Of a stretch of DNA of 64,000 nucleotides, positions 46,153-63,756 are shown in pieces. Position numbers and translations under genes: made by a program. Numbering within the stretch: the first letter of the stretch is position 1; each line of letters opens with the position of its first letter. Under the pieces are notes generated by a model. That model was not told the origin of the DNA, searched no databases, and saw only the letters and a program-made list of their open reading frames with translations. The DNA is taken from contig NZ_CP082966.1 in NCBI RefSeq assembly GCF_019968605.1, positions 3,027,501-3,091,500 of the forward strand. The letters are read 5' to 3'. This stretch comes from Polaribacter litorisediminis (lineage in GTDB: Bacteria; Bacteroidota; Bacteroidia; Flavobacteriales; Flavobacteriaceae).

Positions 46153-46186
46153 CAAACTTATTAAAGATATATGCAAGCTATTTGCA
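46153..46186 (-). promoter_or_regulatory. Promoter motif TGCA-N7-TGCA plus -7 box, site 2
   Basis: On the minus strand TGCAAATAGCTTGCA (46186-46172), 11 bases, then TAAGTTTG (46160-46153), 22 bases before the ATG at 46130. The motif overlaps the stop codon of the TPR gene. Confidence 0.65.
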
Positions 46187-47740: not shown

Positions 47741-49859
47741 ATTGTTCTAATTTTTTGATTAATAGTTGTAATTTTATATCCTCTTTGCAGTTGAATGTTT
47801 TTGGGAGTGCCCTAGAAAAACTTCCGTTTTTTTTGAAATAGAATTGTATATTGGAAGTTACACTATCCGTAACTAGAAAATATTGAACAAAATATTTATT
47901 TACTTGTTCATCAATATTGGTTATGACTATATCTAATTCTTGACAACACGCTCTCACAACAAAATATAATGATTCCAAAAAATCTACACTTGGCTTGTAA
48001 GCTAACATGACACCTGTCAAGTCGTTATGATTGAAAATATCTTCAAGTTCTTTTTCTTCGGCAGTACCTCTTTTATTTAGTACTTCAAATTGATTAACAA
48101 AATGACCTGAAGCCTTATGACTTGCTTTTAATATAAACTCTTGAGTTGCATTGTAGCTCACGGTATATCTTTCTAAATAATCTCTGGACGCAACATTAAT
48201 GATTGCATAATTCGTAGCTTCTAATTTTTCTTTTACCTCCCAATACTTTAAACTTTTTGCTTTGTGATCTGTTGCCTTATGAAAGGGTGATGTATTGACG
48301 TTTTCCAGATACAATGCATTGTTTGGTATTCTACCAACATTAGTGATCTCTGCTATTTTTAATTTACTAAACGTAGTTAAATGAGGAGGGTTTATCGCAT
48401 AAACTGTATTTACACCTCGAGTTGTGGCTGTATACGTCCATCTTAAGGCATCATTACTTAAACCTGCTCTGCCAGAATAGTCTACAAACACCTTATCCCA
48501 TTCACCACCTTGAGATTTATGGCAAGTAATTGCATAGCCATATTTTACCCTCAAAGCATTGTAAAATGGATCTTTGATTAACGCATCTTTAAATTCTTTT
48601 GAACCTACTTTGAACTTAGATAATCCGTTTTGTCTTCTCTTTTCTTGTTCTTGATTAAAACGCATTACAAAATTGATATATAATGCCTTTGTCATGTCTA
48701 ATGTTAAATCTCTATCAATACTATTTAACAAATCATCAATAATATAACAGCATATATCTTCATCAAAATGAGGCACTCTAAATGCTATTTCTCTAAATTT
48801 TAATTTGATAATTTCTTTTATTCTTTTGCCATTACGCAGCACATACACTGGGACAGATTGCTCAACCGTATGTTGTGAAACCTGAACCACTTTTGCCAAA
48901 TCTCCGTTATACAATTCTGTCTTGTACGAATATTGATTGTTATTATTTATCATGATGATATCTCCTGCTACAATTGCTTTCTGGTCTGGAAATAACACTT
49001 CTCTTAATGCAAAATTATAATGGTAGGCTTGTGCATTTGAAAATGATATGATTACACCATCTCCTATTTCTGGATTTGGGTAAAGGTTTGTAAACTGATT
49101 AACGATATCATACGAATCTAACTTTACAAAACTTTCTTGATCATATTTTAACTCGATTGTATTTCTTGATGATTCTTTTAAAAGTGCTCTAATACTATTT
49201 GCATTTTCTAATATTAAATTATCATCTTGTCTCATAACTTGCGTTAGTTCTGAAAACTCACAAGCATATCCTAATTCCTTAAAATAATCAATTTCTAGTG
49301 CTTTGGATTGATTATCGCCAACTGGTGGCAGCTGAGCCGGATCTCCTACAAAAATAATTTTATTGTTTTTATTTGTCGTAAAAGTGTGCATCAGCAAATC
49401 ATTTAGAAGAAAGTTAGTTCCAAAATCAAACAGTTCGTTCTTAGCTTCTTTAGAAGAAATCATAGACGACTCATCTACAATTAACACCCTTTCATTATTT
49501 GACTCTAAATCAATTGGGAAGTAATATTTTACACTATGATCTGCCAATTCTTTAGATTCTGCATTAATTGCTTTTAAATCTTCTAATTTATAAATACTGC
49601 TATGTATAGTTCTACCAAAACCTGTCTTATCCTTTAATACTTTAGCAGCTCTTCCTGTAGGTGCTATAATATTAAAAAGTCTTTTATTTTCTTCTAAATA
49701 TTTTACTATCCCACTAATTAAAGTTGTTTTCCCAGTACCTGCATAACCTTGAAGGATAAATATACTTTTATCACTTTCTAGGAAATCATTTATGTGACCA
49801 ACTGTATTTTGTTGATCTCCATTTAGTCTGATATTTTGGTAAAAATTTTTTAATTTCAT
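47730..49859 (-). CDS. RecD/Pif1-like superfamily 1 DNA helicase
   Basis: A 709-residue helicase. Walker A GYAGTGKTTLIS (about 38-49), Walker B VDESSMIS (about 127), motif III GDPAQLPPVG (about 170), and C-terminal motifs YAITCHKSQGGEWDKVFVDY and LRWTYTATTRG (about 450-500). The final 200 residues are an extra domain of unknown fold. It should unwind DNA 5' to 3' using ATP. It lies between DUF3127 (20 bp upstream) and the TPR gene (overlap), forming one operon. A C-terminal piece of a second helicase of the same type enters the window at its right edge. Confidence 0.88.
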   Translation of the reverse strand: MKLKNFYQNIRLNGDQQNTVGHINDFLESDKSIFILQGYAGTGKTTLISGIVKYLEENKRLFNIIAPTGRAAKVLKDKTGFGRTIHSSIYKLEDLKAINAESKELADHSVKYYFPIDLESNNERVLIVDESSMISSKEAKNELFDFGTNFLLNDLLMHTFTTNKNNKIIFVGDPAQLPPVGDNQSKALEIDYFKELGYACEFSELTQVMRQDDNLILENANSIRALLKESSRNTIELKYDQESFVKLDSYDIVNQFTNLYPNPEIGDGVIISFSNAQAYHYNFALREVLFPDQKAIVAGDIIMINNNNQYSYKTELYNGDLAKVVQVSQHTVEQSVPVYVLRNGKRIKEIIKLKFREIAFRVPHFDEDICCYIIDDLLNSIDRDLTLDMTKALYINFVMRFNQEQEKRRQNGLSKFKVGSKEFKDALIKDPFYNALRVKYGYAITCHKSQGGEWDKVFVDYSGRAGLSNDALRWTYTATTRGVNTVYAINPPHLTTFSKLKIAEITNVGRIPNNALYLENVNTSPFHKATDHKAKSLKYWEVKEKLEATNYAIINVASRDYLERYTVSYNATQEFILKASHKASGHFVNQFEVLNKRGTAEEKELEDIFNHNDLTGVMLAYKPSVDFLESLYFVVRACCQELDIVITNIDEQVNKYFVQYFLVTDSVTSNIQFYFKKNGSFSRALPKTFNCKEDIKLQLLIKKLEQYAI

Positions 49860-49879: not shown

Positions 49880-50233
49880 TTAAAAAGGTAAACCGTCATC
49901 TTCCTCTTCCAATTGACTTTGATCAAAAGTTTCTGGTTGTGGGATATTTCCCATACCTACTTTCTCATTTTGCACACTTTCAATTTTCCAAGCTTTAATA
50001 TCTGTGTACCATCTGTTATTGTATGGTCTACTTTCAATATCAAAATCAACAACAAGCTCTTTACCTACTTGTAAAATCTCGTTGTTAATTTTATCTCCCC
50101 AGATAGATATACATATCTTTTTTGGGTACTGTGCATCGGTCTCCACAATAATATCTTGCTTTTTCCATTCTCCGTTTTTGCTCGTTCCTGTTTGTAACGG
50201 TAGACATTCTATTAATTTCGCTTTTAGTTGCAT
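49880..50233 (-). CDS. DUF3127 OB-fold (ssDNA-binding-like) protein
   Basis: A 117-residue protein of the DUF3127 family, an OB-fold similar to single-stranded DNA-binding proteins (KLIECLPLQTGTSKNGEWKK at the start, then WGDKINNE). It ends with an acidic tail SQLEEEDDGLPF that closely resembles the SSB C-terminal tip (DDDIPF), which recruits helicases and nucleases. It is the first gene of the helicase operon, so it probably coats ssDNA for the helicase. Confidence 0.88.
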   Translation of the reverse strand: MQLKAKLIECLPLQTGTSKNGEWKKQDIIVETDAQYPKKICISIWGDKINNEILQVGKELVVDFDIESRPYNNRWYTDIKAWKIESVQNEKVGMGNIPQPETFDQSQLEEEDDGLPF

Positions 50234-50465: not shown

Positions 50466-50475
50466 TAGAAATCTA
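50466..50475. promoter_or_regulatory. Operator-like palindrome TAGAAATCTA, site h
   Basis: Exact palindrome in the conserved block (AACAATATAATCGCCTCTTAG before it). Unlike the others it lies 233 bp from the next start on the minus strand (DUF3127), directly behind the stop codon of the left 79-residue family copy. It may be a relic of a lost array unit. Nothing else is recognised in 50294-50465. Confidence 0.6.
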
Positions 50476-50490
50476 TTTTCCCTCCCAAAG

Positions 50491-50730
50491 CTATATCGTA
50501 ATTACCTCTAAAATTTCATTTTCACTAGAACTTTTTAAATAGCGTGTATACGCTGCGATATTTTTAATTTTATCATAAATTCTTATAAATCCATCACTAA
50601 ATTTTACTTGAATAGTGCTTCCGCCTGGTTGATGAGATAATGGGTTTGTTCTATATTGGTCTGCTACTAAAAATGAATTATTTGATTCTTGTCCTAAATT
50701 GTTAAAAATTGGATTTATGTTATAGCCTAT
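50491..50730 (-). pseudogene. 79-residue family C protein, left copy, start codon lost
   Basis: A fully open 80-codon frame, identical in length and about 80% identical to the three tandem copies at 62117-62990 (FNNLGQESNNSFLVADQYRT, HQPGGSTIQVKFSDG, KNIAAYTRYLKSSSENEILE). The ATG present in the other copies is ATA here, and residues 2-5 differ. All other codons are intact, so the loss may be recent, or ATA may be used weakly. It stands on the far side of the CRISPR array from the other copies. Confidence 0.75.
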
Positions 50731-50781
50731 GGTTTATGGTTTTAGTTGTTTACTTGCTATACGAACAATATAAGCCTCGCA

Positions 50782-50791
50782 TAGAAACCTA
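50782..50791. promoter_or_regulatory. Operator-like palindrome, site i (one mismatch)
   Basis: TAGAAACCTA in the conserved block CTATACGAACAATATAAGCC TCGCA; 52 bp upstream of the lost start codon of the left family C copy, the same distance as in the intact copies. Confidence 0.6.
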
Positions 50792-50924
50792 TTTTAAAAC
50801 TAACATTTATGAAGGAAGCTTTTTATTAGCATAGATATAAAAGAAACAACAAAATCTTTATACTGTATTCATGAACTTACTTTTTCAAAAAAGCAATGGA
50901 CAGACAAGAATTGGTAATCAGAAT

Positions 50925-53900
50925 GTGTTAATCCTTGTTTTAATGGAACTTACTTTTTGAGACGGTTACAAATTGATTAGTAAAAACTCTAAAAAATGTC
51001 TTAATCCTTGTTTTAATGGAACTTACTTTTTGAGACTTTTACATCTAAGGACTTAGAGAAAATGACAAAAAGGTCTTAATCCTTGTTTTAATGGAACTTA
51101 CTTTTTGAGAAAATGCACGCAATTGGGATAACAAAAGCAGAAGAGGTCTTAATCCTTGTTTTAATGGAACTTACTTTTTGAGCTGGAGAAAAAACTGGGT
51201 GGCTGCGTTATTGGAACTCGTCTTAATCCTTGTTTTAATGGAACTTACTTTTTGAGCATTGATATTCATAACATTAGCAATATTTATTTGCGTGTCTTAA
51301 TCCTTGTTTTAATGGAACTTACTTTTTGAGTCATCCCTAATAGGTTGGTAGATCTGAATGACGAAAGGTCTTAATCCTTGTTTTAATGGAACTTACTTTT
51401 TGAGTAAAACATTATATGGATTGTTATGACAAGTGGGGTAAGGTCTTAATCCTTGTTTTAATGGAACTTACTTTTTGAGATAGTTTCACTACAAGTAAAG
51501 CAAGATATGCTATAGTCTTAATCCTTGTTTTAATGGAACTTACTTTTTGAACTAAAAATAAAGTAAATTATGCGCTTATTTGTGTAGGAGTCTTAATCCT
51601 TGTTTTAATGGAACTTACTTTTTGAGCTGGTCACAAAGCGCTCATTGCTTTAAGCTTTACGGTCTTAATCCTTGTTTTAATGGAACTTACTTTTTGAGTC
51701 TTAACAGACCCTTTTTACGTATAGATTGGAAATAGTCTTAATCCTTGTTTTAATGGAACTTACTTTTTGAGTTACAACTGCTGGGTGTATTATTTGTAGC
51801 GTAAAAGTCTTAATCCTTGTTTTAATGGAACTTACTTTTTGAGTTGTATCTGTAATGGATATAGAATCTTGCCCTGAATCGTCTTAATCCTTGTTTTAAT
51901 GGAACTTACTTTTTGAGTAATTCAACCAAGTGGTAATCCTGCATTTCTTACTGTCTTAATCCTTGTTTTAATGGAACTTACTTTTTGAGCCCGAAGATTA
52001 TCTGTGTCTCTTCACGAGGATACTCTTGTCTTAATCCTTGTTTTAATGGAACTTACTTTTTGAGTGACCAAATGGACACCAAAGGCGAAGGAGGAGAGAG
52101 GTCTTAATCCTTGTTTTAATGGAACTTACTTTTTGAGATTGTTAATGAATTTAGTGAATGTGTGGGACCACTTAGTCTTAATCCTTGTTTTAATGGAACT
52201 TACTTTTTGAGTCAGAATTTAGAGGAAACTCTACAGGAAATCTAGTTGGTGTCTTAATCCTTGTTTTAATGGAACTTACTTTTTGAGAAAAAAAGTAAAT
52301 CATAGTTTGTAACCTCTTCACGGGAGTCTTAATCCTTGTTTTAATGGAACTTACTTTTTGAGCAATTAGTACGCCCTGGGTATGTTCTAACAGACATGAG
52401 TCTTAATCCTTGTTTTAATGGAACTTACTTTTTGAGCCGTGTACGACGAGCTATATGCTTCTGGTATACGTGAGTCTTAATCCTTGTTTTAATGGAACTT
52501 ACTTTTTGAGTTTAAGTAAAAGTCAAAAGTTAGAGCTTTTATACAAGTGTCTTAATCCTTGTTTTAATGGAACTTACTTTTTGAGAGGACAAGAAAAGTC
52601 CTACCTTTTATTACAATAGCGATAAGTCTTAATCCTTGTTTTAATGGAACTTACTTTTTGAGCTTTGTGAATCCATGGAGAATAGTAATGAATCTGAAAT
52701 TGTCTTAATCCTTGTTTTAATGGAACTTACTTTTTGAGTGTTTTACAGATTACTTTTCTAAAAGAATTGGCGAAGTGTCTTAATCCTTGTTTTAATGGAA
52801 CTTACTTTTTGAGCAATAACGACTTCTTGTTACCCACTGAAGTAGAGGCATGTCTTAATCCTTGTTTTAATGGAACTTACTTTTTGAGCAATTAGTACGC
52901 CCTGGGTATGTTCTAACAGACATGAGTCTTAATCCTTGTTTTAATGGAACTTACTTTTTGAGTTTAAGTAAAAGTCAAAAGTTAGAGCTTTTATACAAGT
53001 GTCTTAATCCTTGTTTTAATGGAACTTACTTTTTGAGAGGACAAGAAAAGTCCTACCTTTTATTACAATAGCGATAAGTCTTAATCCTTGTTTTAATGGA
53101 ACTTACTTTTTGAGACTTATTGTTCGTCCGACACGAATAGCTTCCAAAGAAGTCTTAATCCTTGTTTTAATGGAACTTACTTTTTGAGGAATTTAAAGAA
53201 GCTGGTTTTGAAGGAACAGAACTTGAGTCTTAATCCTTGTTTTAATGGAACTTACTTTTTGAGGAATTTAAAGAAGCTGGTTTTGAAGGAACAGAACTTG
53301 AGTCTTAATCCTTGTTTTAATGGAACTTACTTTTTGAGACTCGTGAAGAGTATACAGATGCCCTAAAAACAGATTGTCTTAATCCTTGTTTTAATGGAAC
53401 TTACTTTTTGAGTCGAGAGAAAGTTTGTATATCATAGCCCTGTTACTGGTCTTAATCCTTGTTTTAATGGAACTTACTTTTTGAGACTTATTGTTCGTCC
53501 GACACGAATAGCTTCCAAAGAAGTCTTAATCCTTGTTTTAATGGAACTTACTTTTTGAGGAATTTAAAGAAGCTGGTTTTGAAGGAACAGAACTTGAGTC
53601 TTAATCCTTGTTTTAATGGAACTTACTTTTTGAGACTCGTGAAGAGTATACAGATGCCCTAAAAACAGATTGTCTTAATCCTTGTTTTAATGGAACTTAC
53701 TTTTTGAGTCAATCGAGCAAACGCTAAAACAGCAAGATATGATTAGTCTTAATCCTTGTTTTAATGGAACTTACTTTTTGAGATTATGCCAGAAAAAGCT
53801 GCAGGAAAGATGAAAGACGCGTCTTAATCCTTGTTTTAATGGAACTTACTTTTTGAGAACTATAAATTATGAACTTAAACATTCCTGGTGTAAGTCTTAA

Positions 53901-56071
53901 TCCTTGTTTTAATGGAACTTACTTTTTGAGATAACTTAACTTATTACATGGAATATTTCATAAAAATGTCTTAATCCTTGTTTTAATGGAACTTACTTTT
54001 TGAGCTAATCAAGAGCTAACTGAAGCCATTAATGAGCGTATGTCTTAATCCTTGTTTTAATGGAACTTACTTTTTGAGTCTTGGTTCAAGTATGGGCAAC
54101 AAACAAAGAGTGTGAAAAGTCTTAATCCTTGTTTTAATGGAACTTACTTTTTGAGCCAGTCACTTGAACTTCTAGGAATAGAAGTAATTAAAGTCTTAAT
54201 CCTTGTTTTAATGGAACTTACTTTTTGAGAACACAGCAAATCAAGGTTCCTTAGAGGTATTAGTGGTCTTAATCCTTGTTTTAATGGAACTTACTTTTTG
54301 AGATAAAACAAATTTCGATAAACAAAACAAAATATTTTGTCTTAATCCTTGTTTTAATGGAACTTACTTTTTGAGTTGACTTGAAGGACGGAAAAAAAGG
54401 ATTGAATGCAAGTCTTAATCCTTGTTTTAATGGAACTTACTTTTTGAGTCCTTGAAAAAAACGGTTACAAATTAATAAGTAAAAAGTCTTAATCCTTGTT
54501 TTAATGGAACTTACTTTTTGAGACAAAGATTATTTAAGTAAACCAAACCAAGGACTACCTGTCTTAATCCTTGTTTTAATGGAACTTACTTTTTGAGAAT
54601 TAGCAGAAGCTATTGATGAAAGAATAGCTGATTGTCTTAATCCTTGTTTTAATGGAACTTACTTTTTGAGTTAAAACTTTATTAGCTAAACCTTATAAGC
54701 TTGTGTGTCTTAATCCTTGTTTTAATGGAACTTACTTTTTGAGCTGGAAGTAAAGGAGTCTAATGCTGGAAACCTCGTACTGTCTTAATCCTTGTTTTAA
54801 TGGAACTTACTTTTTGAGCCCAAAGAATTTGGGATAACTATGAACGGGAACAAGGTCTTAATCCTTGTTTTAATGGAACTTACTTTTTGAGTGGAAAAAG
54901 ATGTCATTTACCAAAATCAGAAACACTAGTCTTAATCCTTGTTTTAATGGAACTTACTTTTTGAGAAAGAACAAATCTTCGAGAAGTACAAAGAAAACCG
55001 TCTTAATCCTTGTTTTAATGGAACTTACTTTTTGAGGACAACTTATTAGTTGAAGTGTGGGCTAATAACAGGTCTTAATCCTTGTTTTAATGGAACTTAC
55101 TTTTTGAGTCAACGTAGAAAAACTAAACTACTATGGTTCAGGAATGGGTCTTAATCCTTGTTTTAATGGAACTTACTTTTTGAGGCTAAGTACATGCATT
55201 GGCTTAGAGTTATGGAAGAAAGGTCTTAATCCTTGTTTTAATGGAACTTACTTTTTGAGAAGAAGTACCATACATCTATAAGTATAAGTTAGCGATTGTC
55301 TTAATCCTTGTTTTAATGGAACTTACTTTTTGAGCCTGAAACACATGCGTTACATAATATGCGTGTGTATGTCTTAATCCTTGTTTTAATGGAACTTACT
55401 TTTTGAGCAATGCTGACGTTTTTATCATCCCTAACGGATTGGTGTCTTAATCCTTGTTTTAATGGAACTTACTTTTTGAGACAATGTTTTAACTTCTGTG
55501 AAAGCAGGTGATAGTTTGTCTTAATCCTTGTTTTAATGGAACTTACTTTTTGAGATTAATTTTAAACCTTTAAAACTTTTACAATGGATAGTCTTAATCC
55601 TTGTTTTAATGGAACTTACTTTTTGAGTTTTTTAGAAAGATATTTTAAAGATGGATGCCCTTACAGTCTTAATCCTTGTTTTAATGGAACTTACTTTTTG
55701 AGTATCAAGTATAGCAAAGAGGAAACTAAAGTCCTTAAGTCTTAATCCTTGTTTTAATGGAACTTACTTTTTGAGCGTTTTTAACAAAGGACGTAGAAAG
55801 TGTTTCCGAATTGTCTTAATCCTTGTTTTAATGGAACTTACTTTTTGAGTTTTTTGTTATAACGGTATTACCGAGTTCAATCGTGTCTTAATCCTTGTTT
55901 TAATGGAACTTACTTTTTGAGCGTTTACAAGGATTTATCAGGTGCAGAAGCTGTCTATGGTCTTAATCCTTGTTTTAATGGAACTTACTTTTTGAGACTG
56001 TTATTTCTTTATTGGAGGAAAGATTAAATTTATTGTCTTAATCCTTGTTTTAATGGAACTTACTTTTTGAG
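50925..56071 (-). CRISPR. CRISPR array, 70 repeats and 69 spacers
   Basis: The 37-bp repeat begins GTCTTAATCCTTGTTTTAAT and ends GGAACTTACTTTTTGAG on the plus strand; spacers are 35-40 bp. Read on the minus strand the repeat ends ATTAAGAC, similar to the ATTGAAAC 5' handle of type I-B/III crRNAs, so transcription is probably leftwards. The repeats are almost invariant; exceptions are the leftmost (GTGTTAAT, 50925) and the one at 51515 (last base A). A degenerate leftmost repeat supports the leader being on the right, beside cas1. Seven spacers are duplicates of others, leaving about 62 different ones. Many spacers look coding. No interference gene is visible in the window. Confidence 0.98.
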
Positions 56072-56213
56072 ACCTGAATTTCTAAACCGCTAAAAATCAA
56101 TTTATTAAGATCAATTTTCTTAATAAAACCTTGATATAAACCATATTTTAGTACCTTTTTTTGCGTTTGCAAAACTATAAATTATTTTTAACTAAAGTAC
56201 ATATAATATTTAA
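56072..56213 (-). promoter_or_regulatory. CRISPR leader
   Basis: 142 AT-rich bases between the perfect right-hand repeat and the cas1 stop. It contains a perfect 10-bp inverted repeat TTTATTAAGA / TCTTAATAAA (56101-56110 and 56118-56127, seven-base loop) 30 bp from the first repeat. That could be a leader-anchoring site or a cas1 terminator (a short T-run follows on the minus strand). Confidence 0.6.
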
Positions 56214-57194
56214 TTATTCTTTAAAAACTTTTAATTTTTGAGCAAAACTTTTTGCCCAAAGCTCAATATGGTTGGTACGAGATCTGCTATTGCCTTTAAT
56301 CGGTATAATTTCATCCATATAATTATTAAAACTATTTACTAATATTCGTTTACCATTTTCATTTAACAACCAAACCTGGTTATTAATATCAAAAAAATCT
56401 GGAAACATTATTTTTTGCATGCATAAATCTACTACAACAAAATCTGCCCAAACTCTAAAAATCTCTATAACATCATACACTAAAACAGGTCTGTTATAGG
56501 TATCTCTATGAAAAACACCCAAATAAGGGTCTATACCCGCTACTATTAAGGCACGCTCTACATGTATATAAAGTATGCCGTAACAATAATTTAGCATGGC
56601 ATTAAACATATCAAATGCAGGATGCTGGCTTCTCTTTTTAAACTTATACATATCTGGTAAATTGTTATTTAAAACTTCAAAATACAATTTAGAACTATAC
56701 CCTTCTATCCCCCTTATTTTATCAGTAATTAATTTAGTATTTTCTTCTTTTAAGTTTATCAATTTTTCTATGGACTTTTGTAACTTTTTATAGCTAATTT
56801 CTATATGCTGCTTATTAGAGTAATCATATTTTTGTAACGAAATTATGAGCGTTTGCTGGTTTTCTATCTTTTGTTGCATTAAGTTCTTAATCCATACAAT
56901 GGCTGCATTAGATTTGCTAAATGCAGCTTGGTTTTTACGTATACTAGAAATACTACCGTATTTAGAACTCCAAATACGCCCTTTTGGCGTACCTGTTTTG
57001 CCTATTAAAATAACTTCAATTTCATGCGCTATCGCTAAAAACAAAACGTTAGATGTTAATTGAACAGATTTGTTAAGTAATATAGATTTTACCTTAGAAA
57101 CCGGCACATTATGGTATTCTTTTTCATACCCTACAACAAACATATCGTTCTTCACCTTTATACTTGCACCGTATTTATTTATCACCAACTGCAT
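56214..57194 (-). CDS. cas1: CRISPR-associated endonuclease/integrase Cas1
   Basis: A 326-residue Cas1, the integrase that inserts spacers at the leader end. Beta-rich N-terminal domain (to about 85), then the helical catalytic domain with the metal ligands E173 (KLYFEVLN), H229 (YLGVFHRDTYNRP) and E244 (YDVIEIFRVWADF). Length and the HRDTYNRP text fit Cas1 proteins accompanying type III/I-B loci of Bacteroidota. It is the last gene of the operon, three bases after cas2, and its stop faces the leader. Confidence 0.97.
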   Translation of the reverse strand: MQLVINKYGASIKVKNDMFVVGYEKEYHNVPVSKVKSILLNKSVQLTSNVLFLAIAHEIEVILIGKTGTPKGRIWSSKYGSISSIRKNQAAFSKSNAAIVWIKNLMQQKIENQQTLIISLQKYDYSNKQHIEISYKKLQKSIEKLINLKEENTKLITDKIRGIEGYSSKLYFEVLNNNLPDMYKFKKRSQHPAFDMFNAMLNYCYGILYIHVERALIVAGIDPYLGVFHRDTYNRPVLVYDVIEIFRVWADFVVVDLCMQKIMFPDFFDINNQVWLLNENGKRILVNSFNNYMDEIIPIKGNSRSRTNHIELWAKSFAQKLKVFKE

Positions 57195-57197
57195 TGC

Positions 57198-57626
57198 TTA
57201 TATAAATAAGGTTGCTTTGTGATGCACAATAATATCAAAATCAATATTTTCTCCAATTATGGTTGTTTTGTTTAAAATATCTTCTCCAATTGGTATGATA
57301 AAAATAGAATCTTTGTTGGTATACATATCATTAATCTCTTTTAATGTTTGTTGAATTTTTTGGTACAATTCTCTTTTAATATTTCCAAAAAAAACAGAAA
57401 GTTGCACTCTTACTAATCCGTTTCTTTCTAAATAAGTAGAAACATAAGTTCTTATTTTAGAATCGCTTATATCATAAATTATATAAATATAAACACTATT
57501 TAGGTTTTTTTTATTTTTACTAATCAGCTCCATAATTTTCGAAATTCTTACATTTATAGCCTCTAAACCATCTACTAATGGTTTTGCCTCTTCAACAAGT
57601 TGATTTAGATTAGTCAACCCCGCCAT
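57198..57626 (-). CDS. cas2: CRISPR-associated protein Cas2
   Basis: Cas2, the structural partner of Cas1. The core is YIYIIYDISDSKIRTYVSTY, RVQLSVFFGN and SIFIIPIGED, with the conserved Asp after the first strand. I use the ATG at 57626 (142 residues) instead of 57686: the earlier start overlaps the primase-like gene by 77 bp, the later one by 17 bp. Still longer than a minimal Cas2 (about 95), owing to a helical N-terminal extension of about 45 residues (NQLVEEAKPLVDGLEAINVR). The C-terminal tail DFDIIVHHKATLFI is also extra. Confidence 0.93.
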   Translation of the reverse strand: MAGLTNLNQLVEEAKPLVDGLEAINVRISKIMELISKNKKNLNSVYIYIIYDISDSKIRTYVSTYLERNGLVRVQLSVFFGNIKRELYQKIQQTLKEINDMYTNKDSIFIIPIGEDILNKTTIIGENIDFDIIVHHKATLFI

Positions 57627-58683
57627 CCGCCTCTTTTGTGTTAATGCTATCAAATTCAAATGCGGATCTTTCTTCTTCTTCTTCATAATTGTCTGAATTG
57701 GTATTGTAGATTAAATTTTCTATTATTAAAACGCTTGCTTCTGCTAATTGCGCTGCCGGTTTTTGCGCTAGGTTTTTTACAACCGTAAACCCTTTTTTAC
57801 CATAATAAATATTAATAATTGTATTTAAACTTGTATCGCCAATCTTAAGTTTTAAGCCGTAATTAATTTCATCTATACTTATTACATTTACATGATGTTT
57901 ACTAAAATTAGTTGGTAATAGTTCTTTAAGTTCTTTTAATGGTGCAGGTACCGTGTATTGTTTTTGTTTTTTAAGTGTTTTAGGTTTTAGTGTTTTTAAT
58001 ATCTCTGCATACGTTTGGTTAGAGATGGCTGGTTTACCCGGTTTTATTGCTGCACTATTATCTTTATTAAGAACATCTTCTATCTCATCTATAAAAGGAA
58101 ACATGGTATCTGAGTAAAAATCTACCTCTAAATTGGTTGCATTATTATTATAATACACATTTTCATCATAAGACAAAAAACATATTCTAGTAGCATCACT
58201 TGTACTAAAATCTACATAATTTTCTAGAACATACTGTTTTGCAAAACTTCTAGAAAATATCTGATAAAAATTACTGTATTCTTTTAAAGAAGCAATAGGG
58301 TTGCTTAATTTAAAGACAACTTTTAGACCGGTACCACTTGGCGAAATAAACGCTAACTTTACTCTTGCATCTTTACATATTGTTTCTTTTAATGTCGTAA
58401 TTTTCTCTTCATCTCCGTAAGCATCAATATCTATAATAAGAAAATCTACTTTACAAAAGTTTTCTGAACATCGAAAATTATCTTTAAACTCTGCTCCAAT
58501 AAAATAAGGTAATTTTCTTTTTAAAAAACCGAAAGATGCTTTATCTATACCCCTTACCTTTCTTAGTTTATCAACGGTATATTTTAAAGATTTGTCTGAG
58601 AATTTTTGTATTAAATTACTCATAGATATGGCACTAAGAGGCACTGTGTTAGATTTTGAAATGTCTGTACTGTAATAAACCAT
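57610..58683 (-). CDS. CRISPR-associated primase-polymerase-like protein (BT4734/VirE_N AEP domain)
   Basis: A 357-residue protein whose first 200 residues are an archaeo-eukaryotic primase-like domain of the BT4734 (VirE_N) type. Motif I is FLIIDIDAYG (D85, D87), motif II SPSGTGLKVVF (114-124), motif III VDFSTSDATRICFLSYD (157-173). The remaining 150 residues hold a lysine-rich linker and a small C-terminal domain (about 255-330). Primase-polymerases encoded with cas1-cas2 (CAPPs) are reported to act in adaptation, probably filling or copying spacer precursors. Here it is directly upstream of cas2 with a 17-bp overlap, which supports that role. The assignment to CAPP by context is strong; polymerase activity is not proven. 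Confidence 0.85.
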   Translation of the reverse strand: MVYYSTDISKSNTVPLSAISMSNLIQKFSDKSLKYTVDKLRKVRGIDKASFGFLKRKLPYFIGAEFKDNFRCSENFCKVDFLIIDIDAYGDEEKITTLKETICKDARVKLAFISPSGTGLKVVFKLSNPIASLKEYSNFYQIFSRSFAKQYVLENYVDFSTSDATRICFLSYDENVYYNNNATNLEVDFYSDTMFPFIDEIEDVLNKDNSAAIKPGKPAISNQTYAEILKTLKPKTLKKQKQYTVPAPLKELKELLPTNFSKHHVNVISIDEINYGLKLKIGDTSLNTIINIYYGKKGFTVVKNLAQKPAAQLAEASVLIIENLIYNTNSDNYEEEEERSAFEFDSINTKEADGGVD

Positions 58684-58711
58684 TAGATTTTGTTTTTTAA
58701 ATTGTGAATAA

Positions 58712-59032
58712 TTAACTTAAATATTTATGTTTTCTTTTGATGTTTTTCCAGGCTTTTAAGTTTTTATAAACCGTAATAATTGCTGCTCCACTTGCATCTG
58801 TCATGACCACTAAATTCATTAAAGAATCTCTTTTTAAAGATTTTGGTACTTCTTTTTTGCCAGTGTTTTTTAAACTGTAAAAACAAAAGCCTTGTTTATA
58901 AATTGGCGTGGCATTTTCTAAGATAAAAACAATACTTTCGTTATTTACTCCGCGTTGTTTAGATCTTTTATTAGAATGATCTGTATGGCTATGCATTTGA
59001 TTAATAGAAGTACTTATTAAATTTGAATTCAT
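58712..59032 (-). CDS. DUF4258 protein, first gene of the cas operon
   Basis: A 106-residue protein: HSNKRSKQRGVNNESIVFIL (residues about 19-38) and AAIITVYKNLKAWK (about 84-97) are the hallmark blocks of DUF4258, a small domain related in outline to BECR/RelE-like ribonuclease toxins. An N-terminal polar extension of 15 residues precedes it; ATG at codon 13 is an alternative start. It lies 28 bp upstream of the primase-like gene and directly behind the shared operator at 59093, so it is controlled with cas1-cas2. I know of no described role for DUF4258 in CRISPR adaptation. Confidence 0.8.
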   Translation of the reverse strand: MNSNLISTSINQMHSHTDHSNKRSKQRGVNNESIVFILENATPIYKQGFCFYSLKNTGKKEVPKSLKRDSLMNLVVMTDASGAAIITVYKNLKAWKNIKRKHKYLS

Positions 59033-59092
59033 AATTGTAAGTTTTAAATAATTAGTTTAAATTTGAGTTATAATTATAATATAGATCTCACT

Positions 59093-59102
59093 TAGAAATC
59101 TA
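59093..59102. promoter_or_regulatory. Operator-like palindrome TAGAAATCTA between the cas operon and the WYL gene
   Basis: Minus-strand context TTGGAAGATAGATTTCTAAG then TGAGATCTATATTAT; 61 bp before the DUF4258 start and 18 bp before the WYL start. The block matches those in front of the small-protein genes, so a single factor, presumably the WYL protein, could control all of them and itself. Confidence 0.7.
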
Positions 59103-59119
59103 TCTTCCAAGCCAAAAAA

Positions 59120-60193
59120 ATGCCTGTTAGCTACTCTCCACATCTTAGATTAAAAGAATTAGAAAAACTATTACAAAATACCTTGCATTATCCAGAAGGT
59201 TGCGAAAAAGAAGAATATCAGGGCGTTTGGACAAAACAAGAGTTAGCCGAAAAAATTTCTGAAATATTTAGTTTAGAGAGAACTCTAACAACTAAAACAA
59301 TAGAAAATGATCTTAAAAAAATGGAAGAAGACTACCACGCTCCCATCGATAAAAAAAACATTTATTTACAAGGTTTTAAAGTAAAATCTAATGGTACAAA
59401 TGTAAAAAAAGTAGGTTATTTTTATTACGATACAAAAATCTCTATATTTAATAATAATAATTTATCGCAAGAAGATTTAAAAAACTTAAGAACTGTGGTA
59501 GATATGCTCAAGCAGTTTAAAGGTTTTAGTTATTTTGAAGATGTAGATGTATTGATAGATAAATTAGAGTTAAAGGCTTCTAAAAATAACCATGCTTCAA
59601 TAATTTTTGAAACTATAGATGAGTTTACGGGCTTAGAACATGTAGATCTCATTGCAAGTGCCATTAAAAATAGCAAAGTTTTAAAAATAAAATACCAGCC
59701 TTTTTATGAAAGTAAACCGGTAACCTATACAATACACCCATACCAACTTAGAGAATATAACAATCGTTGGTTTGTTTTAGCACATACAGAAGAGTTTAAA
59801 GAAAGAAAATTAGGTGTTTATGGTTTATCTAGAATAACAGAAGAACCAAAATTAATAGCTAAAACTTTTATTAAAACCTACACCAATTTAGTAAAAACTT
59901 ATTTTAAAGATATTATTGGTGTTACCAACTTCTTAGATGATAAAGTAGAACATGTTGTTTTTGAAGCTTATGGTATGCGTGCAAATTACATTAAAACCAA
60001 ACCTTGGCACCCTAGTCAACAAATTGTTTCCGAAACAGCAGATACCTGCACTTTTTCTTTAGATATTAAAATTAATAATGAGCTTATAGCGTTAATCTTA
60101 CAATTTGGTCTTGATATTAAAATATTAGAACCTGCATCTTTACAAAATACTATTATCGATACATTAAAAAAAGCGACAGATTTATATGCTTAA
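59120..60193 (+). CDS. HTH-WYL-WCX transcriptional regulator
   Basis: A 357-residue regulator. N-terminal winged helix (about 35-95: VWTKQELAEKISEIFSLERT, TTKTIENDLKKMEEDY), a WYL domain (about 170-260: KILKIKY-like strand VLKIKYQPFYES, then IHPYQLREYNNRWFVLAHTE and LGVYGLSRI) and a C-terminal WCX domain (about 275-355). This is the architecture of BrxR/CapW-type repressors that bind a ligand, often thought to be a nucleic acid or nucleotide, and control phage-defence operons. It is divergent from the cas operon with an 87-bp gap containing the shared palindrome. Confidence 0.92.
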   Translation: MPVSYSPHLRLKELEKLLQNTLHYPEGCEKEEYQGVWTKQELAEKISEIFSLERTLTTKTIENDLKKMEEDYHAPIDKKNIYLQGFKVKSNGTNVKKVGYFYYDTKISIFNNNNLSQEDLKNLRTVVDMLKQFKGFSYFEDVDVLIDKLELKASKNNHASIIFETIDEFTGLEHVDLIASAIKNSKVLKIKYQPFYESKPVTYTIHPYQLREYNNRWFVLAHTEEFKERKLGVYGLSRITEEPKLIAKTFIKTYTNLVKTYFKDIIGVTNFLDDKVEHVVFEAYGMRANYIKTKPWHPSQQIVSETADTCTFSLDIKINNELIALILQFGLDIKILEPASLQNTIIDTLKKATDLYA

Positions 60194-60196
60194 TAA

Positions 60197-60514
60197 TTAA
60201 AACTGAAATGTAATTTTTTTCCAGCGCTGGTTATTACAATATTTTAAGGTTAATCTTGCATTTTTAACGGAATGTTTAAGTTCTTGTAAAAACTCAAGAA
60301 CAGCTTGTAAATTATTTTCTGGCACAAATAACTCGGCATTTTTAAACTGATCTAATTCGTTAATAAGAGACGCAAAACCATCTTCATGATTATTTTCTTT
60401 AAAATAAATAATACTTCCTTCAGAAGTGTATTTTTTAGCAATATATTTAATAGAATCTGTTTCTTTGTAAACGACAGTTTGTTTATCTAAAGCAAATTGA
60501 GTTGTATTTTTCAT
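60197..60514 (-). CDS. Hypothetical protein
   Basis: A 105-residue protein, convergent with the WYL gene (3-bp gap). It reads like a small alpha/beta protein (TVVYKETDSIKYIAKKYTSE, LQAVLEFLQELKHSVKNARL, and a basic end NQRWKKITFQF). No recognised family. It stands at the downstream end of the small-peptide array and may be the last gene of that transcript. Confidence 0.6.
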   Translation of the reverse strand: MKNTTQFALDKQTVVYKETDSIKYIAKKYTSEGSIIYFKENNHEDGFASLINELDQFKNAELFVPENNLQAVLEFLQELKHSVKNARLTLKYCNNQRWKKITFQF

Positions 60515-60539
60515 ATCATTATTTTTAATTGGGTAATCT

Positions 60540-60632
60540 CTATTTTTTACTATTCTTACTATTTTTATTATTATTACTATTTTCTAAAATGGCTGCTACT
60601 AAAGCTAAAGCCGCGAATGCTATTTTATACAT
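60540..60632 (-). CDS. Micro-ORF, 30 residues, hydrophobic peptide
   Basis: MYKIAFAALALVAAILENSN followed by a run of N, S and K. A hydrophobic helix of about 15 residues then a polar, Asn/Lys-rich tail, as in the array members to its right. Sequence is distinct from families A and B. It is the leftmost unit of the array. Confidence 0.55.
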   Translation of the reverse strand: MYKIAFAALALVAAILENSNNNKNSKNSKK

Positions 60633-60692
60633 AATTTTACTTTTTTTTTGATGATTTAAATGATTTTTTACTTTTCTAATTCTTGTCTTTAT

Positions 60693-60800
60693 TTATTCAT
60701 GATTACTTTCTTTAACTGCTTTTTCTTCTTCTTGATCTACATAAATTTTTGCTATCGTTAATGCTGCTCCTAAAACTGTTAATATTAATTTTACGTTCAT
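60693..60800 (-). CDS. Micro-ORF family A, copy 1 (35 residues)
   Basis: MNVKLILTVLGAALTIAKIY, then VDQEEEKAVKESNHE. Hydrophobic/amphipathic N-terminal helix and acidic tail. About 75% identical to the other family A copies at 61122, 61423 and 61857, and the most divergent of them. Confidence 0.65.
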   Translation of the reverse strand: MNVKLILTVLGAALTIAKIYVDQEEEKAVKESNHE

Positions 60801-60833
60801 AATTTTACTTTTTTTAATGATTAAAATGATTTG

Positions 60834-60929
60834 TTACTTGTCTAATTTATTGCTGTTCTCGTTATCTGAATAATTCTTTACTAAGTCAATTGCCAATTCT
60901 AAAATGGTTATTATTGTTTTTGTGTTCAT
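60834..60929 (-). CDS. Micro-ORF family B-like (31 residues)
   Basis: MNTKTIITILELAIDLVKNY followed by SDNENSNKLDK. The helix carries charged residues in register (amphipathic); NYSDN is the family B signature. It is a diverged family B member with a family A-type start (MNTKT), so possibly a hybrid. Confidence 0.6.
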   Translation of the reverse strand: MNTKTIITILELAIDLVKNYSDNENSNKLDK

Positions 60930-60970
60930 AATTTTTGTCTTTTGTTGATGAATAATAATTTGTTACTTCC

Positions 60971-61063
60971 CTATTTTTTGTTCTTGTTTTTGTCGTTATT
61001 TGAATAATTATCTACCAAGGCGATTGCCAATCCTAAAAAGGCTTTGATTACTGCTGGATTCAT
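60971..61063 (-). CDS. Micro-ORF family B, copy 1 (30 residues)
   Basis: MNPAVIKAFLGLAIALVDNY then SNNDKNKNKK. Hydrophobic helix followed by an Asn/Lys tail. Preceded by the array's conserved leader (AATTATTATTAATCAACAAA). Confidence 0.65.
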   Translation of the reverse strand: MNPAVIKAFLGLAIALVDNYSNNDKNKNKK

Positions 61064-61121
61064 AATTCTATTTTTTTGTTGATTAATAATAATTTGTTAC
61101 TTCTCTAATTTTTGTCTTTGT

Positions 61122-61229
61122 TTATTGATGATTACTTTCTTTAACTGCTTTTTGTTCTTCCTGATCTACATAAATTTTTGCTATTGTTAGTGCTGCTCCT
61201 AAAAGTGCTAATATTGTTTTTGCGTTCAT
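61122..61229 (-). CDS. Micro-ORF family A, copy 2 (35 residues)
   Basis: MNAKTILALLGAALTIAKIY then VDQEEQKAVKESNHQ. Identical in protein to copy 3 at 61423 although the DNA has synonymous changes (GCA/GCG, TTA/CTA), which suggests selection on the peptide. Confidence 0.7.
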   Translation of the reverse strand: MNAKTILALLGAALTIAKIYVDQEEQKAVKESNHQ

Positions 61230-61270
61230 AATTTTTGTCTTTTGTTGATTAATAATAATTTGTTACTTCC

Positions 61271-61364
61271 CTATTTTTTGTTCTTGTTTTTGTTGTTATT
61301 TGAATAATTATCTACTAAGGCGATTGCCAATCCATAAAATGGCTCTGATTACTGCTGGATTCAT
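61271..61364 (-). pseudogene. Micro-ORF family B, copy 2, frameshifted
   Basis: Same as the other family B copies but with one inserted base after codon 10 (TTTTATGGATT where the others have TTTTAGGATT). The product becomes MNPAVIRAILWIGNRLSR and stops early. The downstream bases still show the old family B tail. Confidence 0.7.
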
Positions 61365-61422
61365 AATTTTAATTTTTTGTTGATTAATAATAATTTGTTA
61401 GTTCTTTAATTTTTGTCTTTGT

Positions 61423-61530
61423 TTATTGATGATTACTTTCTTTAACTGCTTTTTGTTCTTCCTGATCTACATAAATTTTTGCTATTGTTAGTGCCGCTCC
61501 TAAAAGCGCTAGTATTGTTTTTGCGTTCAT
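61423..61530 (-). CDS. Micro-ORF family A, copy 3 (35 residues)
   Basis: MNAKTILALLGAALTIAKIY then VDQEEQKAVKESNHQ, in a 301-bp A-B repeat unit relative to 61122. Confidence 0.7.
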   Translation of the reverse strand: MNAKTILALLGAALTIAKIYVDQEEQKAVKESNHQ

Positions 61531-61571
61531 AATTTTTGTCTTTTGTTGATTAATAATAATTTGTTACTTCC

Positions 61572-61664
61572 CTATTTTTTGTTCTTGTTTTTGTCGTTAT
61601 CTGAATAATTATCTACTAAGGCGATTGCCAATCCTAAAATGGCTGTGATTACTGCTGGATTCAT
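61572..61664 (-). CDS. Micro-ORF family B, copy 3 (30 residues)
   Basis: MNPAVITAILGLAIALVDNY then SDNDKNKNKK. Confidence 0.7.
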   Translation of the reverse strand: MNPAVITAILGLAIALVDNYSDNDKNKNKK

Positions 61665-61705
61665 AATTCTATTTTTTTGTTGATTAATAATAATTTGTTA
61701 CTTCT

Positions 61706-61798
61706 CTAATTTTTGTTCTTGTTTTTGTCGTTATCTGAATAATTATCTACTAAGGCGATTGCCAATCCTAAAATGGCTGTGATTACTGCTGGATTCAT
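61706..61798 (-). CDS. Micro-ORF family B, copy 4 (30 residues)
   Basis: MNPAVITAILGLAIALVDNY then SDNDKNKNKN. A tandem duplicate of copy 3 (134-bp spacing), differing at the last residue. Confidence 0.7.
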   Translation of the reverse strand: MNPAVITAILGLAIALVDNYSDNDKNKNKN

Positions 61799-61856
61799 AA
61801 TTCTATTTTTTTGTTGATTAATAATAATTTGTTACTTCTCTAATTTTTGTCTTTGT

Positions 61857-61964
61857 TTATTGATGATTACTTTCTTTAATTGCTTTTTGTTCTTCCTGAT
61901 CTACATAAATTTTTGCTATTGCTAGTGCCGCTCCTAAAAGCGCTAGTATTGTTTTTGTGTTCAT
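61857..61964 (-). CDS. Micro-ORF family A, copy 4 (35 residues), first of the array transcript
   Basis: MNTKTILALLGAALAIAKIY then VDQEEQKAIKESNHQ. It is the promoter-proximal unit: the degenerate operator at 62023 lies 59 bp upstream and a perfect one at 62091. All array members to its left lack such a promoter and have only a 40-bp conserved leader, so they probably share one polycistronic message. Confidence 0.7.
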   Translation of the reverse strand: MNTKTILALLGAALAIAKIYVDQEEQKAIKESNHQ

Positions 61965-62022
61965 AATTTTTGTCTTTTGTTGATTAATAATAAGTTGTAT
62001 ACTTAGTAATATAATGTTCGCT

Positions 62023-62032
62023 TAGAAAATTT
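62023..62032. promoter_or_regulatory. Operator-like site a (degenerate)
   Basis: TAGAAAATTT within the block AATATAATGTTCGC ... TTTCCAAG; two mismatches to the palindrome. It lies 59 bp upstream of the first micro-ORF of the array. Confidence 0.5.
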
Positions 62033-62090
62033 GTTTCCAAGTGGTTTTTTTTAGTTATTTACCTTCTATACTAACAATATAACTTTCGCA

Positions 62091-62100
62091 TAGAAATCTA
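62091..62100. promoter_or_regulatory. Operator-like palindrome TAGAAATCTA, site b
   Basis: Full block CTAACAATATAACTTTCGCA then TAGAAATCTATTTACCAAC. It is in the position expected for a family C gene to its left, but that gene has been replaced by the micro-ORF array. Confidence 0.65.
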
Positions 62101-62116
62101 TTTACCAACTGAAAAA

Positions 62117-62356
62117 CTATATCGGAATCACTTCCAGAATTTCATTTTCACTAGAACTTCTTAAATAGCGTGTATACGCAGCAATATTTTTAATTTTATC
62201 ATAAATTCTTATAGATCCATCACTGTATTTTACTTGAATGGTGCTTCCTCCTAGTTGACGTGATAATGGGTTCGTTCTATATTCGTCTGCTACTGAAAAT
62301 GAATTGTTTGATTCCTGTACTAAATTGTTAATAATTGAAGTTCTGTTATAAGACAT
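62117..62356 (-). CDS. 79-residue family C protein, tandem copy 1
   Basis: MSYNRTSIINNLVQESNNSF, then VADEYRTNPLSRQLGGSTIQ, a strand-turn-strand YSDGSIRIYDKIKN and the end ENEILEVIPI. Soluble, no signal peptide, probably a small alpha/beta fold. I recognise no family. Three copies follow at an exact 317-bp period, each with its own promoter block. Differences between copies are concentrated near residues 9-22 and 69-74. Confidence 0.75.
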   Translation of the reverse strand: MSYNRTSIINNLVQESNNSFSVADEYRTNPLSRQLGGSTIQVKYSDGSIRIYDKIKNIAAYTRYLRSSSENEILEVIPI

Positions 62357-62407
62357 GGTTTATGGTTTTAGTTATTTACTTTCTATACTAACAATATAAC
62401 CGTCGCA

Positions 62408-62417
62408 TAGAAATCTA
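62408..62417. promoter_or_regulatory. Operator-like palindrome TAGAAATCTA, site c
   Basis: 52 bp upstream of family C copy 1, in the block AACAATATAACCGTCGCA. Confidence 0.7.
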
Positions 62418-62433
62418 TTTACCAACTGAAAAA

Positions 62434-62673
62434 CTATATCGGAATCACTTCCAGAATTTCATTTTTACTAGAATTTGTTAAATAGCGTGTATACGCAGCA
62501 ATATTTTTAATTTTATCATAAATTCTTATAGATCCATCGCTGTACTTTACTTGAATGGTGCTTCCTCCTGGTTGACGTGATAATGGGTTCGTTCTATATT
62601 CGTCTGCTACGTAAAGTGAATTGTTTGATTCTTGTACTAAATTGTTAAAAATTGAAGTTCTGTTATAAGACAT
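62434..62673 (-). CDS. 79-residue family C protein, tandem copy 2
   Basis: Differs from copy 1 at a few residues (FNNL, SLYVADEYRT, RQPGGST, YLTNSSKNEILE). Own promoter block upstream. Confidence 0.75.
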   Translation of the reverse strand: MSYNRTSIFNNLVQESNNSLYVADEYRTNPLSRQPGGSTIQVKYSDGSIRIYDKIKNIAAYTRYLTNSSKNEILEVIPI

Positions 62674-62724
62674 GGTTGATGGTTTTAGTTATTTACTTTC
62701 TATACTAACAATATAAGCGTCGCA

Positions 62725-62734
62725 TAGAAATCTA
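62725..62734. promoter_or_regulatory. Operator-like palindrome TAGAAATCTA, site d
   Basis: 52 bp upstream of family C copy 2, in the block AACAATATAAGCGTCGCA. Confidence 0.7.
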
Positions 62735-62750
62735 TTTACCAACTCAAAAA

Positions 62751-62990
62751 TTATATCGGAATCACTTCCAGAATTTCACTTTTATTAGAATTTCTTAAAT
62801 AGCGTGTATACGCAGCAATATTTTTAATTTTATCATAAATTCTTATAGATCCATCACTGTACTTTACTTGAATAGTGCTTCCTCCTGGTTGACGTGATAA
62901 TGGGTTCGTTCTATATTCGTCTGCTACGTAAAGTGAATTGTTTGATTCTTGTACTAAATTGTTAAAAATTGAAGTTCTGTTATAAGACAT
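62751..62990 (-). CDS. 79-residue family C protein, tandem copy 3
   Basis: Almost identical to copy 2 (end YLRNSNKSEILEVIPI). The last 14 residues reappear at the end of the chimeric frame at 63068-63220. Confidence 0.75.
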   Translation of the reverse strand: MSYNRTSIFNNLVQESNNSLYVADEYRTNPLSRQPGGSTIQVKYSDGSIRIYDKIKNIAAYTRYLRNSNKSEILEVIPI

Positions 62991-63041
62991 GGTTGATGGT
63001 TTTAGTTATTTACTTTCTATACTAACAATATAAGCGTCGCA

Positions 63042-63051
63042 TAGAAATCTA
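63042..63051. promoter_or_regulatory. Operator-like palindrome TAGAAATCTA, site e
   Basis: 52 bp upstream of family C copy 3, in the block AACAATATAAGCGTCGCA. Confidence 0.7.
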
Positions 63052-63067
63052 TTTACCAACTCAAAAA

Positions 63068-63220
63068 TTATATCGGAATCACCTCCAGAATTTCACTTTT
63101 ATTAGAATTTCTTGCATAGCTTGGATGCTTCTCTAGGTTTTTCCCTTTTTCCTTTTCTAAATAAATTTGAGCTACTACTGTTGCGAATCCTAAAATGGCT
63201 ACTACTACTTTTACATCCAT
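63068..63220 (-). CDS. Chimeric 50-residue protein: micro-ORF head, family C tail
   Basis: Starts MDVKVVVAILGFATVVAQIY, then LEKEKGKNLEKHPSYA, like family A peptides (AILG...A.IY.E). It ends RNSNKSEILEVIPI, the exact last 14 residues of family C copy 3, in frame. A deletion or unequal crossover must have joined a hydrophobic-peptide gene to the 3' end of a family C gene without breaking the frame. It has its own operator block 76 bp upstream. Confidence 0.65.
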   Translation of the reverse strand: MDVKVVVAILGFATVVAQIYLEKEKGKNLEKHPSYARNSNKSEILEVIPI

Positions 63221-63295
63221 AATTTTTGTTTTTATTGGTTTATGATTATTATTTTTCAGTTATTTACTTTCTATACTAACAATATAACTTTCGCA

Positions 63296-63305
63296 TAGAA
63301 ATCTA
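63296..63305. promoter_or_regulatory. Operator-like palindrome TAGAAATCTA, site f
   Basis: In the block AACAATATAACTTTCGCA, 76 bp upstream of the chimeric frame. Confidence 0.65.
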
Positions 63306-63321
63306 TTTTCAATCTGAAAAA

Positions 63322-63694
63322 CTATATCGGAATCACTTCTAAAATTTCTTTTTTATGAGCACTTTTCTATGATTTCTGTATTGCTCATAATTCCACTTTT
63401 TAAACTGCTACTACTTCTATTTTAATTCTTGACAAATTTATAAAAATACTATGCAATATAATTGCACAAATAATGTCACATTCATAATTTTTCATTTGTC
63501 CGAGTTTTTTTTCAAAGGTTTTTACATTTTTAATTTTATCAGAAATTCTAATAGATTCATTACCGTATTTTACTTTCATGGTATTTCCTCCTAGTTGATG
63601 TGATAATGGGTTTGCTCCAGATACGTCTGCTACAAAAAATGAATTGTTTGATTCTTGTCCTAAATTGTTAAAATTTAATTTCTTTTATAAGACA
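63322..63694 (-). pseudogene. Degenerate family C copy
   Basis: The start ATGTCTTATAAAAG is kept but a stop follows after six codons. Another frame keeps NNLGQESNNSFFVADVSGAN and a diverged IRISDKIKNVKTFEKK, and family C 3' sequence (TATATCGGAATCACTTC) survives at 63322-63343. A clear ATG lies 53 bp from operator site g. Decayed unit of the array. Confidence 0.65.
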
Positions 63695-63746
63695 TGGTTT
63701 ATGGTTTTAGTTATTTGCTTCCTATACAAACAATATAACTTTCGCT

Positions 63747-63756
63747 TAGAAATCTA
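63747..63756. promoter_or_regulatory. Operator-like palindrome TAGAAATCTA, site g
   Basis: In the block CAAACAATATAACTTTCGCT, 53 bp upstream of the degenerate family C copy. It is the rightmost site in the window. Confidence 0.65.

Follow-up and report, generated by a model that had tools for sequence, protein, structure and literature searches.

A promoter block concentrated in a type III-D CRISPR island of Polaribacter litorisediminis is most likely the operator of a WYL regulator and joins CRISPR adaptation to phage-related small-protein genes

Regulators with a winged helix-turn-helix (wHTH), WYL and WCX domain plan include DriD of Caulobacter and PafBC of mycobacteria, which answer cell-wide DNA damage, and BrxR and CapW, which lie beside defence operons and act through an inverted-repeat operator at the promoter. 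As far as the accessible text of these papers goes, DriD and PafBC use a site at a fixed distance from a poor -10/-7 element, DriD has a divergent promoter, PafB reads a -26 motif (PMC11804915), and the BrxR island carries two R-boxes. There is a precedent for a regulon of adaptation genes in Csa3a, a CARF-HTH protein of the archaeon Sulfolobus islandicus (PMC7480081). Modules built around the CRISPR-associated primase-polymerase type B (CAPP_B), in which PrimPol, Cas1 and Cas2 accompany a RecD-like helicase, have been described from type III loci of Bacteroidetes (PMC8211822, available sections). Here we describe a 64,000-nt stretch of P. litorisediminis (contig NZ_CP082966.1, positions 3,027,501 to 3,091,500; "the window"), where a 10-bp palindrome, TAGAAATCTA, set in a longer promoter block, GNNNNNTAGATTTCTANGCGANNNTTATATT, precedes CRISPR adaptation genes, a helicase gene set and arrays of small-protein genes beside the gene of a WYL regulator, WYL1. 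Judged from its sequence context, the block is most likely the WYL1 operator, joining CRISPR adaptation with phage-related small-protein genes.

The locus resembles each of these systems in part. WYL1 shares the domain plan of DriD and PafBC and is closest to them by profile and Foldseek comparison, but most copies of the block lie in a CRISPR island, and a response to single-stranded DNA (ssDNA) is putative here. BrxR and CapW have the same plan and a similar setting, but their sequence similarity to WYL1 is weaker, the operator core here is 10 bp, and the two R-boxes of the BrxR island compare with ten sites that include small-gene arrays. Csa3a differs in its domain type and archaeal host, and small-protein arrays go unmentioned in the available text on it. 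The PrimPol-Cas1-Cas2 and helicase genes match the described CAPP_B modules, to which this locus adds a shared operator, DUF3127, family C (a set of small proteins described below) and arrays of micro-open reading frames (micro-ORFs); the word WYL does not occur in the main text of that description. Within the open-licence PMC literature, which mostly excludes subscription papers, the accessible text yielded sll7009, BrxR, CapW and Csa3a as related precedents, and neither a WYL-controlled adaptation regulon nor this small-protein array was found there.

An initial annotation, made from the sequence letters, had listed eight exact and two near copies of the palindrome, and a pattern search confirmed them at the same positions. 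The exact copies, all on the forward strand as written, lie at 50466..50475, 59093..59102, 62091..62100, 62408..62417, 62725..62734, 63042..63051, 63296..63305 and 63747..63756 and nowhere else in the window (0.29 expected; a maximum of three in any of 100 shuffles), while the near copies are TAGGTTTCTA at 50782..50791, with one core mismatch, and the site at 62023..62032. As a bare 10-mer the palindrome is common genome-wide, with 30 matches compared to 56 (28 + 28) for the reversed control. The block at up to three mismatches matches 11 times in the 4.34-Mb genome and its reversed control not at all; ten matches fall within the island, all on one strand, and the eleventh, with three mismatches, lies 178 bp ahead of what reads by eye as a pheT gene. 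Hundreds of copies across the genome, which the initial annotation had named as grounds for dropping its reading, were therefore not what we found. A shorter form of the block (up to two mismatches) had no match in nine further genomes, five of which belong to the same genus, against four matches there for the reversed control, and the exact block was absent from the viral contigs searched. The flanks described as conserved hold as a majority rule only, since CGC is missing at 59093 and TTNCCAA at 63296, 50466 and 50782. The concentration of this promoter block in one island is real.

Nine of the sites are assigned to the minus strand, and the tenth, the independent site at 59093, stands between the WYL1 gene (plus strand) and an operon of DUF4258-like, PrimPol, cas2 and cas1 genes (minus strand). 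Upstream of the three intact family C genes (62117..62990, minus strand, 79 aa each; copies at 62117-62356, 62434-62673 and 62751-62990) lie 62408, 62725 and 63042, respectively, each 51 nt from the start codon. The distance is also 51 nt, by sequence and gap-free alignment, for the two degenerate family C copies, of which the one behind 63747 is broken by an early stop and that behind 50782 lacks an ATG. From palindrome to start we measured 58 nt for the first micro-ORF (from 62023), 60 nt for the DUF4258-like gene and 75 nt for a chimeric ORF at 63068-63220 (from 63296), in agreement, within one base of counting, with the 52-61 bp (once 76) given earlier. Site 62091 lies 126 nt upstream of the micro-ORF array. 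The palindrome at 50466 closely follows a degenerate family C copy, on its 3' side, and had been singled out as the only extra site; it lies 232 nt from the start codon of the DUF3127 gene and precedes the DUF3127, RecD-like helicase and TOTE genes.

The arrangement of the promoters bears on how the block could act. The -7 element of Flavobacterium johnsoniae promoters reads TAHHTTTG (PMC6847099, available sections), and a consensus match, TAAATTTG (59058..59065, plus strand), with TTG 20 nt upstream, marks the probable WYL1 promoter; a second consensus match lies 40 nt further upstream. With the promoter at 59058, the palindrome would occupy about +24 to +33. In the leftward units the -7 elements are poor, with TATATTGT, TATATTAT or TATATTAC in place of TAHHTTTG, and the N9 spacing from palindrome to TATATT is constant in all ten sites, eight of them cassette duplicates. 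If transcription begins 4-5 nt past the -7 element, the palindrome centre would fall near -26 in these units, a position similar to that of the PafBC -26 motif. A constant distance from a poor -10/-7 element, the trait of DriD and PafBC sites, is present at the block sites.

WYL1 (59120..60193, plus strand, 357 aa) is divergent from the adaptation operon and begins 17 bp from the palindrome at 59093. It has the wHTH-WYL-WCX architecture of BrxR and CapW (Pfam WYL, E value 1.2e-10; WCX, 5e-9; winged helix in the modelled N-terminus), and by its AlphaFold model and PDB matches its fold agrees with both BrxR/CapW and, over WYL-WCX, DriD/PafBC. In a profile search against known structures, DriD and PafB chains reached E values of about 1e-4, compared to 0.12 and 0.14 for BrxR and 0.4 for a CapW chain; Foldseek placed PafB (5e-12) and DriD (1e-11) before BrxR (3e-7) and CapW (8e-7). 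Since WYL1 is nearer to DriD and PafBC in these searches and its site would lie near -26 before a poor -7 element, repression is not the sole simple reading. The initial annotation had proposed one regulon under a BrxR/CapW-type repressor. The regulon agrees with the island concentration, the block before adaptation, helicase and small-protein units and the adjacent WYL1 gene, but the repressor identity is not specifically supported.

Relatives of WYL1 reach at most 36% identity in genome contigs (80 retained of 235 loci) and 33% in plasmids (10 of 20 matches listed). The best in the genome collection, among the loci kept, is L080 at 36%, divergent from cas1-PrimPol-cas2. The WYL1 clade was absent from the viral contigs, as was DNA resembling the gap between WYL1 and the operon from the plasmids. 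Four of the five distinct longest contigs above 10 kb listed for family C homologues outside this genome equal exactly in length the longest contigs of WYL1 homologues (14528, 19622, 16655 and 16971), and the two probably co-occur on metagenome contigs.

We favour, tentatively and at slightly less than an even chance, the explanation that the block is the shared operator of a small regulon in a type III-D island and that WYL1 is its ssDNA-responsive regulator, working by DriD-like activation. A WYL1 dimer would probably sit on the TAGA-TT-TCTA core. The WYL domains would bind ssDNA that builds up during phage replication, after DNA damage or on target cutting, and the ssDNA-bound WYL1 would recruit RNA polymerase to the weak leftward promoters, as DriD and PafBC do. 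The induced set would comprise PrimPol-cas2-cas1, the DUF3127-RecD-TOTE genes and the small-protein arrays. Because its site is just downstream of the start of its own consensus promoter, WYL1 would be expected to limit its own expression as well.

Several observations weigh against this explanation. Of the ten sites, eight are part of duplicated family C cassettes. With copy 3 as reference, identity is 97-100% for the block and 95-97% for the frame of copies 1 and 2; for the two diverged copies it is 84% (block), 90% (leader) and 86% and 74% (frame). Since the block of the diverged cassettes decays with its surroundings, it appears to have been carried by duplication, so that these eight sites amount to about one count; independent sites number about two or three. 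The block could thus be the mere promoter of a duplicating small-gene cassette, captured by the adaptation operon with WYL1 uninvolved. We consider this unlikely, since palindrome and N9 spacing are both preserved at 59093, a site with unrelated surroundings that separates a regulator gene from the operon, and since WYL1 and family C are apparently linked on four other contigs. When a matrix trained on the eight cassette sites only was scanned over 84 kb, the held-out sites 59093 (24.9 bits) and 62023 (22.4) ranked directly after the training sites, with 13.0 as the next-best score and 22.0 as the best in 40 simulated 84-kb sequences. The rank of 59093 points to the same signal in an unrelated context, but 62023 barely exceeds the simulated maximum and could have arisen as a duplicate that diverged. 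Site 50466 may be too distant from the DUF3127 set or overridden by a closer promoter. A degenerate copy, TAGATTTCCA, before a second RecD-like helicase to the right of the window (L015, ~1270) ranked about 116th in the same 84 kb, no better than in simulated sequence, and was not counted.

Two further points against activation concern the regulator itself: in a second comparison with VIA-align, BrxR and DriD tie, and a repressor seated near -26 would, in principle, also work. WYL1 could then be a BrxR/CapW-like repressor that occupies the block in the core promoters of quiet cells until a ligand releases the regulon. We regard this as possible but on the improbable side, since DriD and PafBC lead by sequence profile and Foldseek, the poor leftward -7 elements would make for promoters that are weak without help, and the 10-bp core is shorter than CapW sites, given as 19-24 bp in the accessible text. 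Another reader of the block, such as the 105-aa protein at the end of the micro-ORF array, a host regulator or WYL2 of the effector operon, seems very improbable. As a second regulator of the island, WYL2 matches WYL1 at 30% identity across 198 WYL/WCX residues, and the WYL gene beside the CAPP_B locus G105 is closer to WYL2 than to WYL1, but the block has no match in the effector operon or near WYL2, ATTACGcaaCGTAAT in the gap between WYL2 and cas6 is the better candidate for WYL2, and the shorter block is missing from the five same-genus genomes.

Gene content identifies the island as a type III-D CRISPR locus whose adaptation operon is of the CAPP_B kind. CAPP_B (57610..58683; PrimPol_Db, NF040562, E value 7.3e-71, 239 bits against a curated cut-off of 200), cas2 (57198..57686) and cas1 (56214..57194) form one same-strand gene run (56214-58683, minus strand), preceded by a gene for a 106-aa protein that is weakly DUF4258-like (58712..59032, minus strand; E value 0.085, under the cut-off). 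The CRISPR array (50925..56071, minus strand, 70 repeats) has a repeat that occurs nowhere else in the genome, and it is probably transcribed leftward with its leader beside cas1, to judge from the ATTAAGAC handle and from a leftmost repeat that is degenerate. Between 52340 and 53690, six spacers occur two or three times and spacer blocks repeat in order, and the array has thus grown in part by internal duplication. No spacer convincingly matched the fetched contigs or the island.

On the far side of the array, also on the minus strand, lie genes for a DUF3127 protein (49880..50233; PF11325, 3.9e-31), a RecD-like helicase with a TBP-TOTE domain (47730..49859) and a TPR/DUF7017/S1CSD-TOTE protein (46178..47740). 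In the locus G759, homologues of the helicase (35% identical) and of the TOTE protein (28% identical, after cas2) flank cas1-PrimPol-cas2 in one gene run, and DbCas1 interacts with a RecD-like helicase according to the available sections of PMC8211822. The DUF3127-RecD-TOTE set is therefore likely adaptation-linked, so that the block would precede both parts of the likely adaptation machinery. By eye, the DUF3127 protein ends in DDGLPF (coding end 49880-49900), which resembles the SSB C-terminal tip. TOTE-type domains occur in CAPP_B-linked proteins both in the window (46178-49859: TBP-TOTE, S1CSD-TOTE, DUF7017) and in G759 (S1CSD-TOTE, DUF7017).

To the right of the window (L015) are genes for a RecD-like helicase, Csx20, CARF-HEPN Csx1, III-D RAMPs, Cas5, Cas10d, Cas6 and WYL2, with a recombinase-like gene, by eye, beyond the effectors. 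PADLOC typed the effectors as III-D (Cas10d, 1.5e-143; Cas5_IIId, 9.4e-144; Cas7_IIId, 6.9e-160), and WYL2 (L015:11453-12451, or G000:C1:3102953-3103951) heads their operon. The inverted repeat ATTACGcaaCGTAAT, exact in two places in the genome, lies ahead of a TATATTTG element in the WYL2-cas6 gap and is a candidate second operator.

The small-protein genes, all on the minus strand, comprise the family C copies, nine micro-ORFs, each 30-35 aa long and hydrophobic at the N-terminus, with a further one cut down to 18 aa (60540..61964), and the gene of the 105-aa protein (60197..60514), for which the libraries searched gave no family. The 50-aa chimera joins a micro-ORF-like hydrophobic N-terminus to a family C C-terminal end, as if recombined between the arrays. 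A single-sequence search with family C found 13 proteins in 5.8 billion, and a profile search gave 374 matches (120 listed), with relatives on IMG/VR contigs of 10-349 kb (12 loci and one more). In 5 of the 13 listed viral loci the gene after family C encodes, by eye, a small membrane protein. In the viral loci L172, L174, L175, L179 and L181 the relative directly precedes a 69-89-aa hydrophobic protein, and in the first three a HAD-like phosphatase gene, by eye, lies within the next two genes.

Family C was absent from the genome contigs in the first search for relatives, from 298 of 299 same-family genomes (the sole match being this genome) and from named phages (three queries), plasmids and PHROGs, and it matched no family in the libraries searched. 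Its fold model reached a pLDDT confidence score of 70 with a best PDB match at E 0.83, a suspected KTSC-like fold had no such Pfam match, and a match in G086 within a frame of 561 aa was discarded as too weak (E 0.008). No viral relative of the micro-ORFs was found. A 128-aa family C member (L163:3463-3849) does occur in the G105 type III locus of another bacterial family, where a PIF1-like helicase lies between it and cas1-PrimPol-cas2 (E 2e-22, with a profile that itself included that sequence). Of five CAPP_B loci outside this genome, three of them short stretches (5.4, 10.4 and 3.9 kb), family C is present in one and a nearby WYL gene in two. Family C is thus a rare partner of CAPP_B loci.

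At its furthest, our proposal would be an ssDNA-triggered programme in which spacer acquisition by PrimPol-Cas1-Cas2 and the helicase is co-expressed with a tandem phage-derived small protein. In this scheme the cell would have captured family C, a replication or membrane partner of phages, and would use it as bait or adaptor to steer acquisition to replicating phage DNA, with the micro-ORF peptides corresponding to the viral small membrane protein; we consider this decidedly doubtful. It is still unsettled how type III systems hold back spacer acquisition until the need arises; here a single operator, a single sensor-like regulator and a single gene set give a tightly defined and testable case. 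The family C array marks a CAPP_B partner that also occurs in uncultured phages, and if WYL1 does answer to ssDNA, memory formation would be tied directly to phage replication.

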